DNA from: Skermanella mucosa
Lineage (GTDB): Bacteria; Pseudomonadota; Alphaproteobacteria; Azospirillales; Azospirillaceae
DNA length: 64,000 nt
Direction of reading: 5' to 3'
Assembly (NCBI RefSeq): GCF_016765655.2
Contig: NZ_CP086107.1
Location: forward strand, 248,001 to 312,000
A program made the position numbers and the translations under genes. Under the pieces are notes generated by a model. That model ran no database searches. It was given only the letters and a program-made list of their open reading frames with translations, and had not been told where the DNA came from. Shown here piece by piece: positions 7,755 through 40,594 of the stretch. Numbering within the stretch: the stretch's first letter is position 1; each line of letters begins with the position of its first letter.

Positions 7755-8131
7755 GGCTCCCTCCGGTGGGGCAGGGGTTTCCTCTCCGTCCGAAGCCTTA
7801 CAAGAGGCGTGCCAGACGGCCATCGGCATGTCCCAGCGGCGTTTCGGGACTTCGGGCGGGCGCCGATGTTTCGCGACGTGAACGCCGGGGCGGCGGCCTG
7901 TTCGCGAACGTGAACAAGCCCTTCCGCCCCGTCGGCTGCGGCCTGAATCATCCGGGGTCTCGAGGATGGCACCATCACCCCATCCGGATAGTTGCCGGAT
8001 CGGGGAAGCGCCTGTACTGTGCCTGTTGACAGAACAAATCATGAACATTCCCGACGCATGATCATGCCGTCTCCCGCGCCGTCCCCATGCCTGGGCGGCC
8101 GCGGCAGGGCCGGCCCGACGACGGAGGTAGA
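7755..8131. other. divergent intergenic region with tandem direct repeats
   Basis: This 377-bp region separates the usp gene from the divergent transglycosylase-like gene. It contains two near-identical boxes, TTCGCGACGTGAAC (7870-7883) and TTCGCGAACGTGAAC (7901-7915), 31 bp apart and thus on one face of the helix. A TTGACA hexamer at 8026-8031 has no convincing -10 partner. I see no gene here. Confidence 0.5.
7870..7915. promoter_or_regulatory. candidate operator: two TTCGCGA(A)CGTGAAC boxes
   Basis: Two 14/15-bp boxes differ by a single inserted A and start 31 bp apart, about three helical turns. They lie 117-162 bp upstream of the usp start. The repetition and phasing suggest a transcription-factor site. 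The regulator is unknown and the sequence does not match the FNR box TTGAT-N4-ATCAA. Confidence 0.4.
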
Positions 8132-9289
8132 ATGATGAAGCGGACCGGCCAAACCATCGGGGAACTCGTCGCGCGCCTGCATGGCACGGGGATGACCCGC
8201 AGGGGAACGGCGGCGCCCGGGACGACCAAGCCCCCGGCATCGGATCTTCTGATGGCATATACCCGGCGGGCCGCCCTGGGCCTGGTCGTCCTGGGCGCCG
8301 CCATAGGTGGGGTCTGCCAGATCGGCGGAGAGGCCCGGCCGTACCAGCATCGGCAGCTCACGACGCCTGCGTCGGCGGAGGGCTCCGGCCAGGCCGGGAC
8401 GCTGGACGACGTTCTGGCGGAAGCGGGCGGACCGGAACCCGGGAATCCCGGATTTGCCGAGGGTCTGGACGCTCCGCCGGCAGGGTTTCGCGCGTCGGAG
8501 GCGGAAGCCGCCGGAACGGACGCGTCCGGCATCGGAAGCCTCGTTGCACGCCTCGACCGGCAAGCCCGGACCCTCGCGGCGATCGACGAGGCCGCCGCCA
8601 GGGTCGGCGCTTCCGCGCGCCTGATGCGCGCCATGGCCAGCCTGGAGTCCAGCCTCGACGCCACGGCCAAGGCGTCGACCAGTTCGGCGACCGGACTTTA
8701 TCAGTTCATCGAGGCGACCTGGCTCTCCAAAGTCCGGAGCCATGGACGCAAATACGGCCTCGGCCATCTCGCCCGGCATGTCCGCGGAGGCCCGCTGGGC
8801 GAACCCGTCGTCGACGATCCCCTGGTCCGCGAGCGGATCCTGGCCCTGCGCAAGGATGCCAGGCTGAGCGCCTTCCTGGCGGCGGAGCTGACGGTCGACA
8901 ATGCGCGGCGCCTCCGGAAGCTGATGGGCCGCCCGGTCACCCAGACCGAGATCTATCTGGCCCACGTCTTCGGCGTGGCCGGGACGGCGCGCTTCCTGAA
9001 AGCTGCCGAAAGCACGCCCGACAGGGTCGGCGCCTCGATGTTTCCGAAGGAAGCCAGGGCAAACCCGGGCCTTTTCCGGATGGGCGATCAGCCGGCGACG
9101 CTCGGTGAGATCCGGAAGCGGTTCATCGCCAAAATGTCCAGGCTCGACCTCCCCGACCGGCTGGCCGCCATCGACCGCATCGCCCCGGCGCGGGATGCCG
9201 CCGCGGACCAGGATGACGAATTTGACCAGTCGGAGGATTGGCGCGGCGGGATGGGCGAACAGCAGGTCGCCGCTTCCGCCATCCGGTGA
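8132..9289 (+). CDS. lytic transglycosylase-like protein, membrane anchored
   Basis: A 385-residue protein. GGAGGT at 8123-8128 precedes two consecutive ATGs (8132 and 8135); either could be used. A hydrophobic segment at about residues 45-65 follows a basic N terminus, and a low-complexity linker leads to a lysozyme-like domain (ASLESSLDATAKASTSSATGLYQFIEATW), where E172 is the expected catalytic glutamate of SLT-type enzymes. The fold is predicted to cleave peptidoglycan in the periplasm. It is a single-gene unit. The small RNA candidate lies about 120 bp downstream. Confidence 0.8.
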   Translation: MMKRTGQTIGELVARLHGTGMTRRGTAAPGTTKPPASDLLMAYTRRAALGLVVLGAAIGGVCQIGGEARPYQHRQLTTPASAEGSGQAGTLDDVLAEAGGPEPGNPGFAEGLDAPPAGFRASEAEAAGTDASGIGSLVARLDRQARTLAAIDEAAARVGASARLMRAMASLESSLDATAKASTSSATGLYQFIEATWLSKVRSHGRKYGLGHLARHVRGGPLGEPVVDDPLVRERILALRKDARLSAFLAAELTVDNARRLRKLMGRPVTQTEIYLAHVFGVAGTARFLKAAESTPDRVGASMFPKEARANPGLFRMGDQPATLGEIRKRFIAKMSRLDLPDRLAAIDRIAPARDAAADQDDEFDQSEDWRGGMGEQQVAASAIR

Positions 9290-9395
9290 CGTGGCACCTT
9301 CGCCGGGAAGCGGACCCGGCCGGCCGGGGAATATAGTGGTATGCGGGAATAACTCATCTGGAATGATTTATTGCCGCTTGCCTCGTGCGGCTCGG

Positions 9396-9401
9396 TATAT
9401 T
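9396..9401 (+). promoter_or_regulatory. -10 box of the small RNA candidate
   Basis: TATATT lies in an AT-rich patch rare in this GC-rich window. A TTGCCG at 9371-9376 could act as -35, but the 19-bp spacing is long. Transcription would begin near 9408, just before the first hairpin of the RNA candidate. Confidence 0.45.
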
Positions 9402-9407
9402 AGTTTT

Positions 9408-9494
9408 TGCACTGCAGCAGCGATGCTGCATACGCCTCTTTGGGCGTTTCCTCCCTAGACTCTAAGGCCACCCCCCGGGGTGGCCGTTTTTTTT
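9408..9494 (+). ncRNA. candidate trans-acting small RNA with anti-Shine-Dalgarno loop
   Basis: Three hairpins follow a TATATT box in a gene-free gap. Hairpin 1 is TGCAGCA (9413-9419) with TGCTGCA (9424-9430). Hairpin 2 is ACGCC (9432-9436) with GGCGT (9443-9447). An unpaired stretch TTCCTCCCTAGACT (from 9448) contains CCTCCC, complementary to Shine-Dalgarno sequences. Then comes a textbook intrinsic terminator (9466-9494). Size (about 87 nt), layout and C-rich single strand match alphaproteobacterial sRNAs that block ribosome binding. No coding frame fits. I cannot name the family with certainty. Confidence 0.65.
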
Positions 9495-9495
9495 T
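9466..9495 (+). terminator. intrinsic terminator of the small RNA candidate
   Basis: GGCCACCCC (9466-9474) pairs perfectly with GGGGTGGCC (9477-9485) around a two-base CC, and is followed by G and a run of ten T. It is the clearest Rho-independent terminator in the window. The long T tail is also what Hfq-dependent sRNAs need. Confidence 0.85.
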
Positions 9496-9552
9496 TCATG
9501 AACAAGCCGCCTGCCAAGGATCGCACGGTCCGGCGACGGCGAAATCCCAGCG

Positions 9553-10692
9553 TCATTTCGGGGCCCGTCGCCATTGGTCGGCCATCAGGAGCAGAAGGGC
9601 CCAGGCATAGGCCGATCCGAAGGTGGCCTGCTGCCATCCCGGGGCGGACATGAACCGGTCGAGCAGCACCGGCACCGGGAGAATCAGCAGGCAGGCCGCC
9701 ACCGCCTGCACCGGAGTCGGCGGCGCCCGGAAAAACAGCGGCAACAGGAACAGGGTGTAGTGGATCCAGGCCAGCGGCGAGGCGACCAGGGCGCCCAGCA
9801 GGCCAAGGGCGCTGGCCCGCAGAGGGTCCGGCCGCTGCCGGAATGCCCAGAGGGCGAGCCCGCCGAGCAGGGCGAGACTCGCCACCAGGCCGGCCGTGCC
9901 GTATCCGAACCTCAGGAACAATCCCGGCAGCGACGCATTGGTCAGGAAGGCCCCGCGGTCCGCGTCCTGCGAGATCACGTCGAGCCAGAGCCGGTAGATG
10001 CCGGGTCCATACAGCACCGCCGGAACGAGGCTCAGCACGGCCGCACAGGCCCCGGCGGCGAAACTGGCCCGCAGATGCCCGGCCAGAAGCAGCAGCCCCG
10101 GCCAGACCAGGAAGTTCGGCTTGACCGCGACCACGACGCCGATCAGCAGCCCGGCCGCCAGCGGCCGGTCGCGCTCCAGCAGCAGCCATGCGCCGGCCGC
10201 CGCGAGCGCCAGGGGCACGTAGATCTGCCCCAGCACCAGCGTGTCCCAGAAGCCCGCCGCCGCAAAGGCCGCCAGCGCCGGTATCAGCGGGGCTTCCGGC
10301 CGGTAACGGCGGACCAGCAGGATGACGAGGGCCGCGTATGCCACAACCGTGACCGCCCACCAGAGCCGGAAGGCTTCCGCCGGGTCAAGGTAAGAGAGCG
10401 GCTGGAACAGAAGCAGCGAGACCGGCGGGTTGAGGTTCTGGTTCCAGCTCTCGAACCCGGGCATCTCGACCCGGAAAGTCAGCCCTGGATAGATCCCGTA
10501 GGGGTCGAGCCCCTCGGTCGCGGCGCGCCCGGCCCCCATGAAGGAACCGAAGTCCCACAGCAGGTGGCCCGGCAGCGACCGCTGGAGCTGCCACACGATC
10601 AGCGCTGCCAGGCCGGCCGCCAGGAGGGCCGCCAGGAGGGCCGGGAGAACGGAATGGGCCGGCCCGTCCATTCTCCCGCGCGGCGATGTCAT
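9553..10692 (-). CDS. GT87-like (DUF2029) polytopic membrane glycosyltransferase
   Basis: A 379-residue membrane protein with about ten hydrophobic segments, resembling GT87/DUF2029 polyprenyl-phosphate-mannose-dependent transferases. Family-typical pieces are WDFGSFMGAGRAATEGLDPYG, the NPPVSLLLFQPL loop and VKPNFLVWPGLLLL. The start ATG (10692-10690) overlaps the stop of the upstream gene as ATGA, so the two are coupled. It would act at the inner membrane, using a lipid-linked sugar donor on the periplasmic side. The acceptor cannot be deduced. Confidence 0.75.
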   Translation of the reverse strand: MTSPRGRMDGPAHSVLPALLAALLAAGLAALIVWQLQRSLPGHLLWDFGSFMGAGRAATEGLDPYGIYPGLTFRVEMPGFESWNQNLNPPVSLLLFQPLSYLDPAEAFRLWWAVTVVAYAALVILLVRRYRPEAPLIPALAAFAAAGFWDTLVLGQIYVPLALAAAGAWLLLERDRPLAAGLLIGVVVAVKPNFLVWPGLLLLAGHLRASFAAGACAAVLSLVPAVLYGPGIYRLWLDVISQDADRGAFLTNASLPGLFLRFGYGTAGLVASLALLGGLALWAFRQRPDPLRASALGLLGALVASPLAWIHYTLFLLPLFFRAPPTPVQAVAACLLILPVPVLLDRFMSAPGWQQATFGSAYAWALLLLMADQWRRAPK

Positions 10693-20256: not shown

Positions 20257-20441
20257 CGGATCCTTTCCCGTCTGGCGGTGCAAGTCACGATCACGGATCG
20301 GCGGTGCGGCGGCCCCATCGTCGAGCCCTCAGTCGTTGAGCCATTAAATGGCCAATCCGCGATAGGTTCACATTGGGCGGCAATGGTGCAGCATTGTCAA
20401 GCCGGTGTTTTGCCTTCCCAGACTATTGCTGCGATGCGATA

Positions 20442-20458
20442 ACCAATTGCAGATTGGT
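20442..20458. promoter_or_regulatory. candidate operator ACCAAT-N5-ATTGGT
   Basis: ACCAAT (20442-20447) and ATTGGT (20453-20458) form a perfect inverted repeat with a 5-bp spacer, in the 213-bp gap between the aldo/keto reductase stop and the hydrolase-TTT operon. It may control that operon. The half-site ACCA/TGGT also occurs in the operator candidates near the GntR regulator, in the opposite orientation. Confidence 0.4.
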
Positions 20459-31665: not shown

Positions 31666-32128
31666 CCGGCATCGGGCATCGGGGAAATCGCAGCCGGCGG
31701 AGCGCGCCATGCATGGTCCGCACGCCGGCTTGGCATATTGTGCACTGCGATATGCCGGCCGGGGCGACCATATGTCTGTCCAGGCAACCCTGAAACAGAG
31801 TTTTGATCATGACCAGCTATCTGGTTCTCTACACGACGAAATGGAGCAAGCTCCTGGCTCGGACCGGCGGGAGCAAGCGTACCTTCCGCCTGTTTCGCTT
31901 CGGTCTCCAGCCCCACGAGATCGCGGCGATGAACGCCAGGTAAGTTGGCGGGAGCAGTAAACCACGGAATAGGCCTGAAGTCCATAGTCCGGATCGTATT
32001 CTTATGATTCGAGCGCTTCAACGTCCTGCCGCGACCAGCCGTTCCACCCGCCGGGGCCGAAGCGCGCTACCATGGGGTATCGGCCGGGCGTCCGCCGAGC
32101 AGGCCGCGATCGGGTTGGAGAGCACGAC
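31666..32128. other. intergenic region with one small possible gene
   Basis: 463 bp between the FucP-like gene and the cyclase. The only coding candidate is the 44-codon frame at 31809-31943. No terminator with a T tract or repeat was found. Confidence 0.4.
31809..31943 (+). CDS. small hypothetical basic protein
   Basis: A 44-residue frame (starts MTSYLVLYTTKWSKLLART, ends HEIAAMNAR) rich in Arg and Lys with pI clearly basic. The ribosome site (ACAGAG, 11 bases upstream) is weak. Codon use resembles the neighbours. No family is recognised, and it may not be expressed. Confidence 0.3.
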   Translation: MTSYLVLYTTKWSKLLARTGGSKRTFRLFRFGLQPHEIAAMNAR

Positions 32129-38798: not shown

Positions 38799-39461
38799 TT
38801 ACTGGTCCCGCGGCTGCGCCCGCCCGCTGATGCTCTGGGAAGCCTCTTTGGCAACCTTGGCCGTCGCCTCGGCAATCCTGATCCTGCTGTTCAGCATCAC
38901 GTGCATTTCCTGATTCAGCAAGGCGCTTTGCGCTGCCACGAGGTCCTGCGGGGTTCGTGCGCGCAGGATGCTGTTCATGCCGTCGATGTTGCATTGCATG
39001 GCCTGGCGCGTGTAGTCGGCCCATTCGCGCATCACCATCTGGAAACCGTCGGCCAGCATGACGCCGGTCTGCATCATGACCCCCAGGTTCTGCTGGGTGC
39101 GGCCCGCCACCTGCTTGAATGCCTTGTCCTGCATCGCCGGCATCCGGCCGAGTTGGCCGGCCATCGTCGATTCGACCGCCCGGCCGCCTGCCTGATGGAC
39201 CGCATCGGCGGCATCGCGGGCCGGTTCATCCGAGCGCTCCATGGTGCCGCGCAGTTCCTGGGCGGCGTTCTGGAGGTTCTGTCCGGCGGCCTCGGCATTC
39301 TTCCGGATCTCGGCGCGGCCGGTGGCTTCGACGACTTTCCGGACCGGTTGGGCAGCCGGCTGGGTATCCGGGTTGGACGCGTCGTGAGCGCTTTTCGCCA
39401 TCTCGGCGCCGGCATCGCGAACGGTCTTGCCGGCATCGGCAGTCTTCACTACGGCTGACAT
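38799..39461 (-). CDS. phasin-family protein
   Basis: A 220-residue protein from ATG 39461, with GAGGAAC upstream. The C-terminal part (ADGFQMVMREWADYTRQAMQCNI, RTPQDLVAAQSALLNQEMHVML) is a phasin domain, which coats polyhydroxyalkanoate granules. The first 110 residues are an Ala/Glu/Lys-rich helical region with amphipathic repeats (EMAKSAHDAS, NAEAAGQNLQNAAQELRG) like stress-protein CsbD/LEA-like segments. It is downstream of ysnF on the same strand with a strong hairpin between them. Confidence 0.88.
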   Translation of the reverse strand: MSAVVKTADAGKTVRDAGAEMAKSAHDASNPDTQPAAQPVRKVVEATGRAEIRKNAEAAGQNLQNAAQELRGTMERSDEPARDAADAVHQAGGRAVESTMAGQLGRMPAMQDKAFKQVAGRTQQNLGVMMQTGVMLADGFQMVMREWADYTRQAMQCNIDGMNSILRARTPQDLVAAQSALLNQEMHVMLNSRIRIAEATAKVAKEASQSISGRAQPRDQ

Positions 39462-40315: not shown

Positions 40316-40594
40316 GCTAAATTCCTTGATGATCTGTGCTTGGGAAACTGGGTTATCAGCGCCCATCTCGCAACTGCAATGTAGTATGCTGCGGTGCGAT
40401 AACATAGTAAAATATCTGTTCAGCCCAAAGTTTATTTATTGCTTACAAAAAAGTATGGCGTTGGATTTCTATGAGTTTCCTGTACATCGGAATTAATAGA
40501 AGAGAATTCACTGCATTCACTATATCAATCATGCGGCTCAGAAGGCGCTATTATTTCTCCTTCCGCATCGCAGAGCTGGACAGCATGACTCCGC
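40316..40594. other. AT-rich intergenic stretch
   Basis: 279 bp of markedly lower GC content than the neighbours, between the ysnF-like start and the acetyltransferase pseudogene. The minus-strand promoter for ysnF probably lies at 40395-40435. No gene is recognised. Confidence 0.4.

Follow-up and report, generated by a model that had tools for sequence, protein, structure and literature searches.

An alpha-r8 (MmgR-type) small RNA locus of Skermanella mucosa with a PhaR-like operator sequence overlapping its predicted first stem

In Skermanella mucosa, a contig of 668,738 bases carries the window analysed here (the whole stretch of 64,000 nucleotides), in which a gap of 263 nt separates an ORF at 8087-9289 (+), which has no Pfam match, from a GT87 glycosyltransferase gene on the minus strand ending at 9553. 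A sequence-only reading had proposed that this gap is gene-free and holds a small RNA with an anti-Shine-Dalgarno (anti-SD) single strand, composed of a TATATT box, two hairpins, CCTCCC and a terminator with ten T. This raises the question of which RNA the locus encodes, how it may be controlled and on what it may act. We found all of these elements in the sequence, and convincing genes were absent between 9289 and the gene end at 9553. The features of the locus are as follows.

9378..9383, + strand: TTGCCT, putative -35-like element; its TTG is shared in aligned Skermanella copies
9396..9401, + strand: TATATT, possible -10 box; a TANNNT-type hexamer stands at the same offset in 6 of 28 copies
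9401..9406, + strand: TAGTTT, alternative -10, from its spacing to the TTG
9402..9422, + strand: PhaR/AniA-like operator sequence AGTTTTTGCACTGCAGCAGCG, matrix score 18.1
9413..9430, + strand: 5' stem-loop TGCAGCA-GCGA-TGCTGCA, 7 bp with a GCGA loop (fold, covariation, GNRA loop)
9427..9501, + strand: match to RF00519, model positions 1-77, 59.4 bits against a cut-off of 41
9432..9447, + strand: second stem-loop, corresponding to the weak hairpin in the alpha-r8 model (Rfam alignment, fold)
9447..9456, + strand: anti-SD core UUUCCUCCCU (TTTCCTCCCT as DNA letters; Rfam alignment)
9466..9496, + strand: intrinsic terminator with a stem at 9466-9485 and ten T at 9487-9496 (sequence, fold)

Family membership and copies in Skermanella

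A covariance-model search, a check proposed with the sequence-only reading, matched the locus to RF00519 (suhB/MmgR, alpha-r8). The match covers the full model with E = 1e-9 for the 64-kb window, and the RNA was therefore assigned to alpha-r8. RF00519 was the sole Rfam family to reach the gathering score within the 64-kb window, and no second small RNA family model was found there at that score. Folding of 9408-9495 gave -36.6 kcal/mol with z = -4.05, and none of 200 shuffles was equally stable. In the predicted fold the core at 9447-9456 is unpaired except for its first U, and a Rho-independent terminator is present at 9466-9496. The core, stems and terminator are kept in relatives, the conservation that the same reading had put forward as a check; together with the covariance-model match, this supports a small RNA with an anti-SD single strand. 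The likeness to anti-SD small RNAs of α-proteobacteria is thereby confirmed, and the family that had been left unnamed is alpha-r8/MmgR.

The motif CUCCUCCC is characteristic of the AbcR, alpha-r14 and cuckoo-CcsR anti-SD small RNAs. Membership in these groups was rejected, since no model of such a family reached its gathering score in the window and CUCCUCCC was not found in 9396-9501. The window copy resembles AbcR (alpha-r15) and cuckoo/CcsR-type RNAs in carrying CU-rich anti-SD sequence in a single strand, but unlike them it is a full-length RF00519 match without that motif. AbcR RNAs are described as partially homologous to RF00519 (PMC7143759), but alpha-r8 is what fits the window copy, given its match over the full model and its UUUCCUCCCU core. 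Linkage to an N-formylglutamate amidohydrolase gene, which is usual but not defining for alpha-r8, is absent at the window copy, whose neighbours are the GT87 gene and the ORF without a Pfam match.

In the S. mucosa genome, 7 RF00519 matches exceed the cut-off and 12 reach E<=1e-4, a count that omits matches below 30 bits. Among these weaker matches, L049 (29.3 bits) has the core and terminator and was counted with the Skermanella copies; the core is also present in L138 and L140, and L139 was rejected as the ribosome-binding site of a gene. Four other Skermanella genomes carry 9, 13, 13 and 12 copies, and 18 further genomes of the family that were searched carry 1 to 7 copies each. A sample of the class, 387 genomes searched with stricter filters and with 11 candidates scored in each, gave matches in 202; two Skermanella genomes had 10 and 9 copies, and every other listed genome had at most 5.

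The Skermanella set comprised 60 copies from five genomes, including S. stibiiresistens SB22 (G004) and S. rosea (G002), and the core UUUCCUCCCU was exact in 53 of them. According to flanking DNA, five copy groups are common to all five genomes. The window copy has an ortholog in S. rosea only (L063, on plasmid NZ_CP086113.1; 84.8% identity over 301 nt); the copies retrieved from G001, G003 and G004 included none. Within one genome, some copies have common flanks with LuxR-type response-regulator genes nearby, so that duplication of larger stretches is visible. Paralogous LuxR-type response-regulator genes are neighbours of L039, L043, L046 and L044; a distance of 3 kb separates L044 from L046, and L044 adjoins a resolvase gene. 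This neighbourhood is a hint as to how the copies spread.

A covarying 5' stem and an operator-like sequence

The hairpin at 9413-9430 is located mostly outside the RF00519 model, whose start at 9427 falls inside it. We aligned, by sequence only, 33 of the 60 Skermanella copies, picked for carrying the element, and RNAalifold predicted the stem on this alignment. Pairing was kept in 96.4% of 224 cells, while arms slid by 1-3 columns reached at most 57%. Both bases had changed in 17 of the 224 cells versus 5.6 in shuffles, and none of 500 shuffles had as many; such covariation counts are inflated by the kinship of the copies and by the selection of rows carrying the stem. Among these 33 copies neither the number of pairs with a double change (3 versus 2.7 in shuffles) nor that of further pair types (7 versus 7.7) was in excess. 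A GNRA loop was present in 32 of the 33.

For the operator, a matrix was built from the 19 S. meliloti sites of promoters efficiently bound by PhaR that are given in Table 3 of PMC12542648, with the mmgR site held out; the held-out site scored 21.9. The sequence at 9402-9422 is the top PhaR-like site of the 64-kb window, and its TGCACTGCA fits the YGCRNYGCR palindrome flanked by AT-rich arms in the promoter region. The next-best sites in the window are at 31735-31755 (17.7), 20424-20444 (14.9) and 40384-40404 (14.8). Within 100 nt before the model start, and with a threshold of 12.8 chosen after the scores were known, PhaR-like sites were detected in 32 of the 60 Skermanella copies versus 8 of 2040 background segments, and in 19 of 25 non-Skermanella loci versus 3 of 566, the tested segments being 110 nt and the background segments 100 nt long. 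Matches had been obtained in 27 non-Skermanella genomes, and 25 of them contributed one locus each. The Fisher p-values for this enrichment are tiny, for copies that are related by ancestry and not independent. No site was found in 28 of the Skermanella copies or in six non-Skermanella loci (L020, L027, L029, L030, L036 and L037), of which L037 also lacks the core.

The genome of S. mucosa has one phaR match (PF07879, 109.5 bits). A phaR gene was found in each of the 29 relatives tested, also where the locus has no site, so the gene alone does not predict the site. Nine phasin matches were found in the same genome. When eight phasin loci were scanned using rough start calls, L102 had a site scoring 20.9, L100 (11.7) and L104 (11.4) had weaker ones, and no clear PhaR-like site was found at the others or at phaR itself. 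The window contains a phasin gene at 38823-39113 (-) (PF09361, 54.1 bits), 29 kb from the small RNA, and no PhaR-like site was seen upstream of it.

The 5' arm of the stem coincides with the second half of the operator-like sequence. We analysed this overlap in the 19 operator-bearing non-Skermanella loci, allowing G-U pairs, and found in 15 that the six bases of the second half-site (GCRRCA or similar) had a full complement upstream of the family's next stem, versus 1.4 in shuffles; these 15 are not independent, as several of the genomes come from one genus. The overlap is lacking in L015, L017, L026 and L034. The 5' arms vary (GCAGCA, GCGGCA, GCGACA), and their pairing partners vary to match. 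The Rfam consensus opens with UGCUG, a potential complement of GCAGCA in the S. meliloti operator, although transcription in S. meliloti has been mapped to begin further downstream. In a different copy class, L040:2001-2108 (-), a PhaR-like site lies 45 nt before the model start, and a long 5' hairpin (z = -5.77) begins at the second half of the operator.

Upstream of the operator, at a distance of 24 or 23 nt from its start, a TTG is shared by 20 of 28 operator-aligned Skermanella copies. The TATATT that had been read as a -10 box has some backing from the alignment: a TANNNT hexamer at this place, 6 nt ahead of the operator, is present in 6 of the 28 copies (two orthologous groups; at most 5 in 300 shuffles). 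The TTG, however, precedes it by only 12 nt, and the usual 17-nt spacing fits instead TAGTTT at 9401-9406 in the AT arm of the operator, where few copies match the consensus. With either choice of -10, the start would be at about 9407-9414 and the RNA would be about 83-90 nt long and retain the 5' stem, unlike S. meliloti MmgR, whose mapped start is downstream of the operator.

Other copies have another upstream element. The 8-mer TTAACCAT, described as a CtrA half-site (PMC3692519, PMC6180460), was found upstream of 14 of the 60 Skermanella copies (L044, L045, L047, L056, L057, L067, L069, L070, L081, L082, L083, L093, L094 and L096) versus 1 of 2444 background segments. None of the 60 has both this 8-mer and a PhaR-like site, and 14 have neither. 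CtrA control of the TTAACCAT copies would be a guess from the motif. Of these 14 copies, 13 stay under the Rfam cut-off, so that the class is under-counted by the model. Each of the five Skermanella genomes also carries one orthologous copy (L048, L058, L071, L084, L095) whose core begins differently, with GATTCCTCCCT, and which is preceded by a well-conserved sequence, AATTTTT-ATCGCTGAGAGGGTTTATCCCTCT. In L083, L096 and L141 the core is changed, with TTCTTCC replacing TTCCTCC, and these copies may have a different target set.

Because the Rfam model begins at 9427, and the S. meliloti MmgR described in the source is an RNA of 77 nt starting 13 nt after the PhaR site, the hairpin could be DNA-level sequence only, an operator or double palindrome, with the RNA beginning near 9427. 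We consider this unlikely: the 3' arm at 9424-9430, outside the PhaR motif but for its border, changes together with the 5' arm, the GNRA loop is nearly invariant, complementary arms (with loops of 4-21 nt) recur in the 15 other loci, and a start at 9427 would need a -10 near GCAGCA. An RNA stem is the simplest reading, since the 3' arm is almost wholly outside the motif, and the 5' stem is probably transcribed as part of the RNA. The operator-like sequence might, for its part, not be a PhaR site in Skermanella, its resemblance arising from the conserved stem together with an AT-rich promoter, or it might be bound by another regulator. The stem by itself requires TGCAGCA-like letters, and several phasin loci, that in the window included, have no clear site with rough start calls; yet the first half-site TGCA and its AT arm are conserved outside the stem, sites occur in loci with very different stems, and the phasin locus L102 has a high-scoring one, which makes this reading improbable to a similar degree.

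The window copy could also be a recent or decaying duplicate, unexpressed or without a role of its own, as its single ortholog in S. rosea and its at least 11 siblings in the genome would allow. The S. rosea copy, however, keeps the operator, stem, core and terminator pairing at its 84.8% identity, and we regard this possibility as very unlikely. The reading that we prefer, and hold to be quite probable, is a stand-alone alpha-r8 gene for a trans-acting small RNA that represses by anti-SD pairing and is controlled by PhaR through the operator overlapping its first stem.

Candidate targets and proposed function

The sequence-only reading had pointed to GGAGGG sites at nearby genes. Such sites are present within at most 20 nt of the start in 6 of 47 heuristically called window genes, but regulation of these genes was not supported: the duplex energy of the core correlates (0.50) with that of the 16S anti-SD tail, and ordinary Shine-Dalgarno sites suffice. 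The neighbouring genes were thus rejected as targets. Genome-wide, AGGGAGGAAA occurs 35 times in the S. mucosa genome and the reversed pattern twice. Of the 35 sites, 14 were judged antisense to small RNA copies, of which L138 and L140 are weak, and 21 remained. Fifteen of these 21 complements are at ribosome-binding sites versus 29 of 80 controls (p = 0.006), the controls being 80 of the 83 HVGGAGGAAA sites without the AG prefix among the first 100 of 176 places listed. Compared with controls of the closest prefix, CG, alone (7 of 15 at ribosome-binding sites), p was 0.18; a set of 40 controls under looser rules gave 14 of 40. No enrichment of solute-binding proteins was shown between the candidates (5 of 15) and the controls (at least 5 of 29, scanned for the ten that looked promising by eye; p = 0.27). 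Three AGGGAGGAAA sites, at genes for an enoyl-CoA hydratase, a DctP protein and an epoxide hydrolase, are kept in three Skermanella genomes, which says little because the proteins are 93-99% identical.

PHB releases PhaR from DNA. In the proposed mechanism, the PHB-sensing PhaR/AniA would probably repress transcription through the operator at the promoter and start site, and the second half of this operator would double as the 5' arm of the first stem of the RNA. Once made, the RNA would reduce the translation of mRNAs by pairing its single-stranded UUUCCUCCCU to their Shine-Dalgarno regions, probably with the help of Hfq. By analogy with the studied systems, the likeliest function would be repression of mRNAs with strong Shine-Dalgarno sites, the small RNA being made once PhaR repression is relieved. 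In S. meliloti, PhaR is described as binding and repressing mmgR (PMC12542648), and MmgR as limiting PHB (PMC12542648, PMC7143759, PMC8401924). For Caulobacter SisA, pairing of the 10-mer core with target mRNA is reported to cause repression with the involvement of Hfq, and the sponge CrfA to titrate SisA (PMC12559287).

The window copy resembles S. meliloti MmgR, as described in these sources, in its family model, core and terminator, in having a PhaR site close to the promoter and in being a stand-alone, trans-encoded gene. MmgR is given there as one copy of 77 nt with the operator upstream of the start, whereas S. mucosa has 12 copies at E<=1e-4, an extra GNRA-capped 5' stem and an operator sequence overlapping this stem. 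Like SisA-D of Caulobacter crescentus (alpha-r8), the Skermanella copies are several siblings with the common 10-mer UUUCCUCCCU; the account of the four SisA-D copies in PMC12559287 reports no shared upstream motif, whereas at least two classes of promoter recur among the Skermanella copies. A single PhaR site, ATATTGTGCAGTGCAGCAACA, between the -10 and the start is described for the S. meliloti PHB depolymerase gene SMa1961, a layout near that proposed here, but this site belongs to a protein gene, while the window site precedes a small RNA.

The family, its core, its multi-copy state in some genera and PhaR control of S. meliloti mmgR are already known. Among the titles and abstract openings listed on mmgR, RF00519, Skermanella small RNAs and anti-SD RNAs, none describes an expansion in Skermanella, a class with TTAACCAT or an overlap of operator and stem, part of which may be in print. 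Somewhat short of an even chance, in our estimate, is the broader reading that Skermanella amplified an anti-SD small RNA to 9-13 copies in promoter classes, one tied to carbon storage through PhaR and one of CtrA type, and that the PhaR-class operator also serves as the 5' arm of a stem, as it also would in many α-proteobacteria. If true, operator evolution would be tied to RNA structure, and the 5' end of the family would have been cut off by the 77-nt model. Such dual use would account for the conserved sequence immediately before the published model, and longer RNAs would then be expected in many species. The locus is now a testable circuit, in which a polymer-sensing repressor would stand over a family of near-identical ribosome-site blockers. 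With its 9-13 copies, Skermanella offers a good setting for asking why many sibling small RNAs with one seed persist, and whether timing is all that distinguishes them, an issue carried over from the Caulobacter study (PMC12559287).
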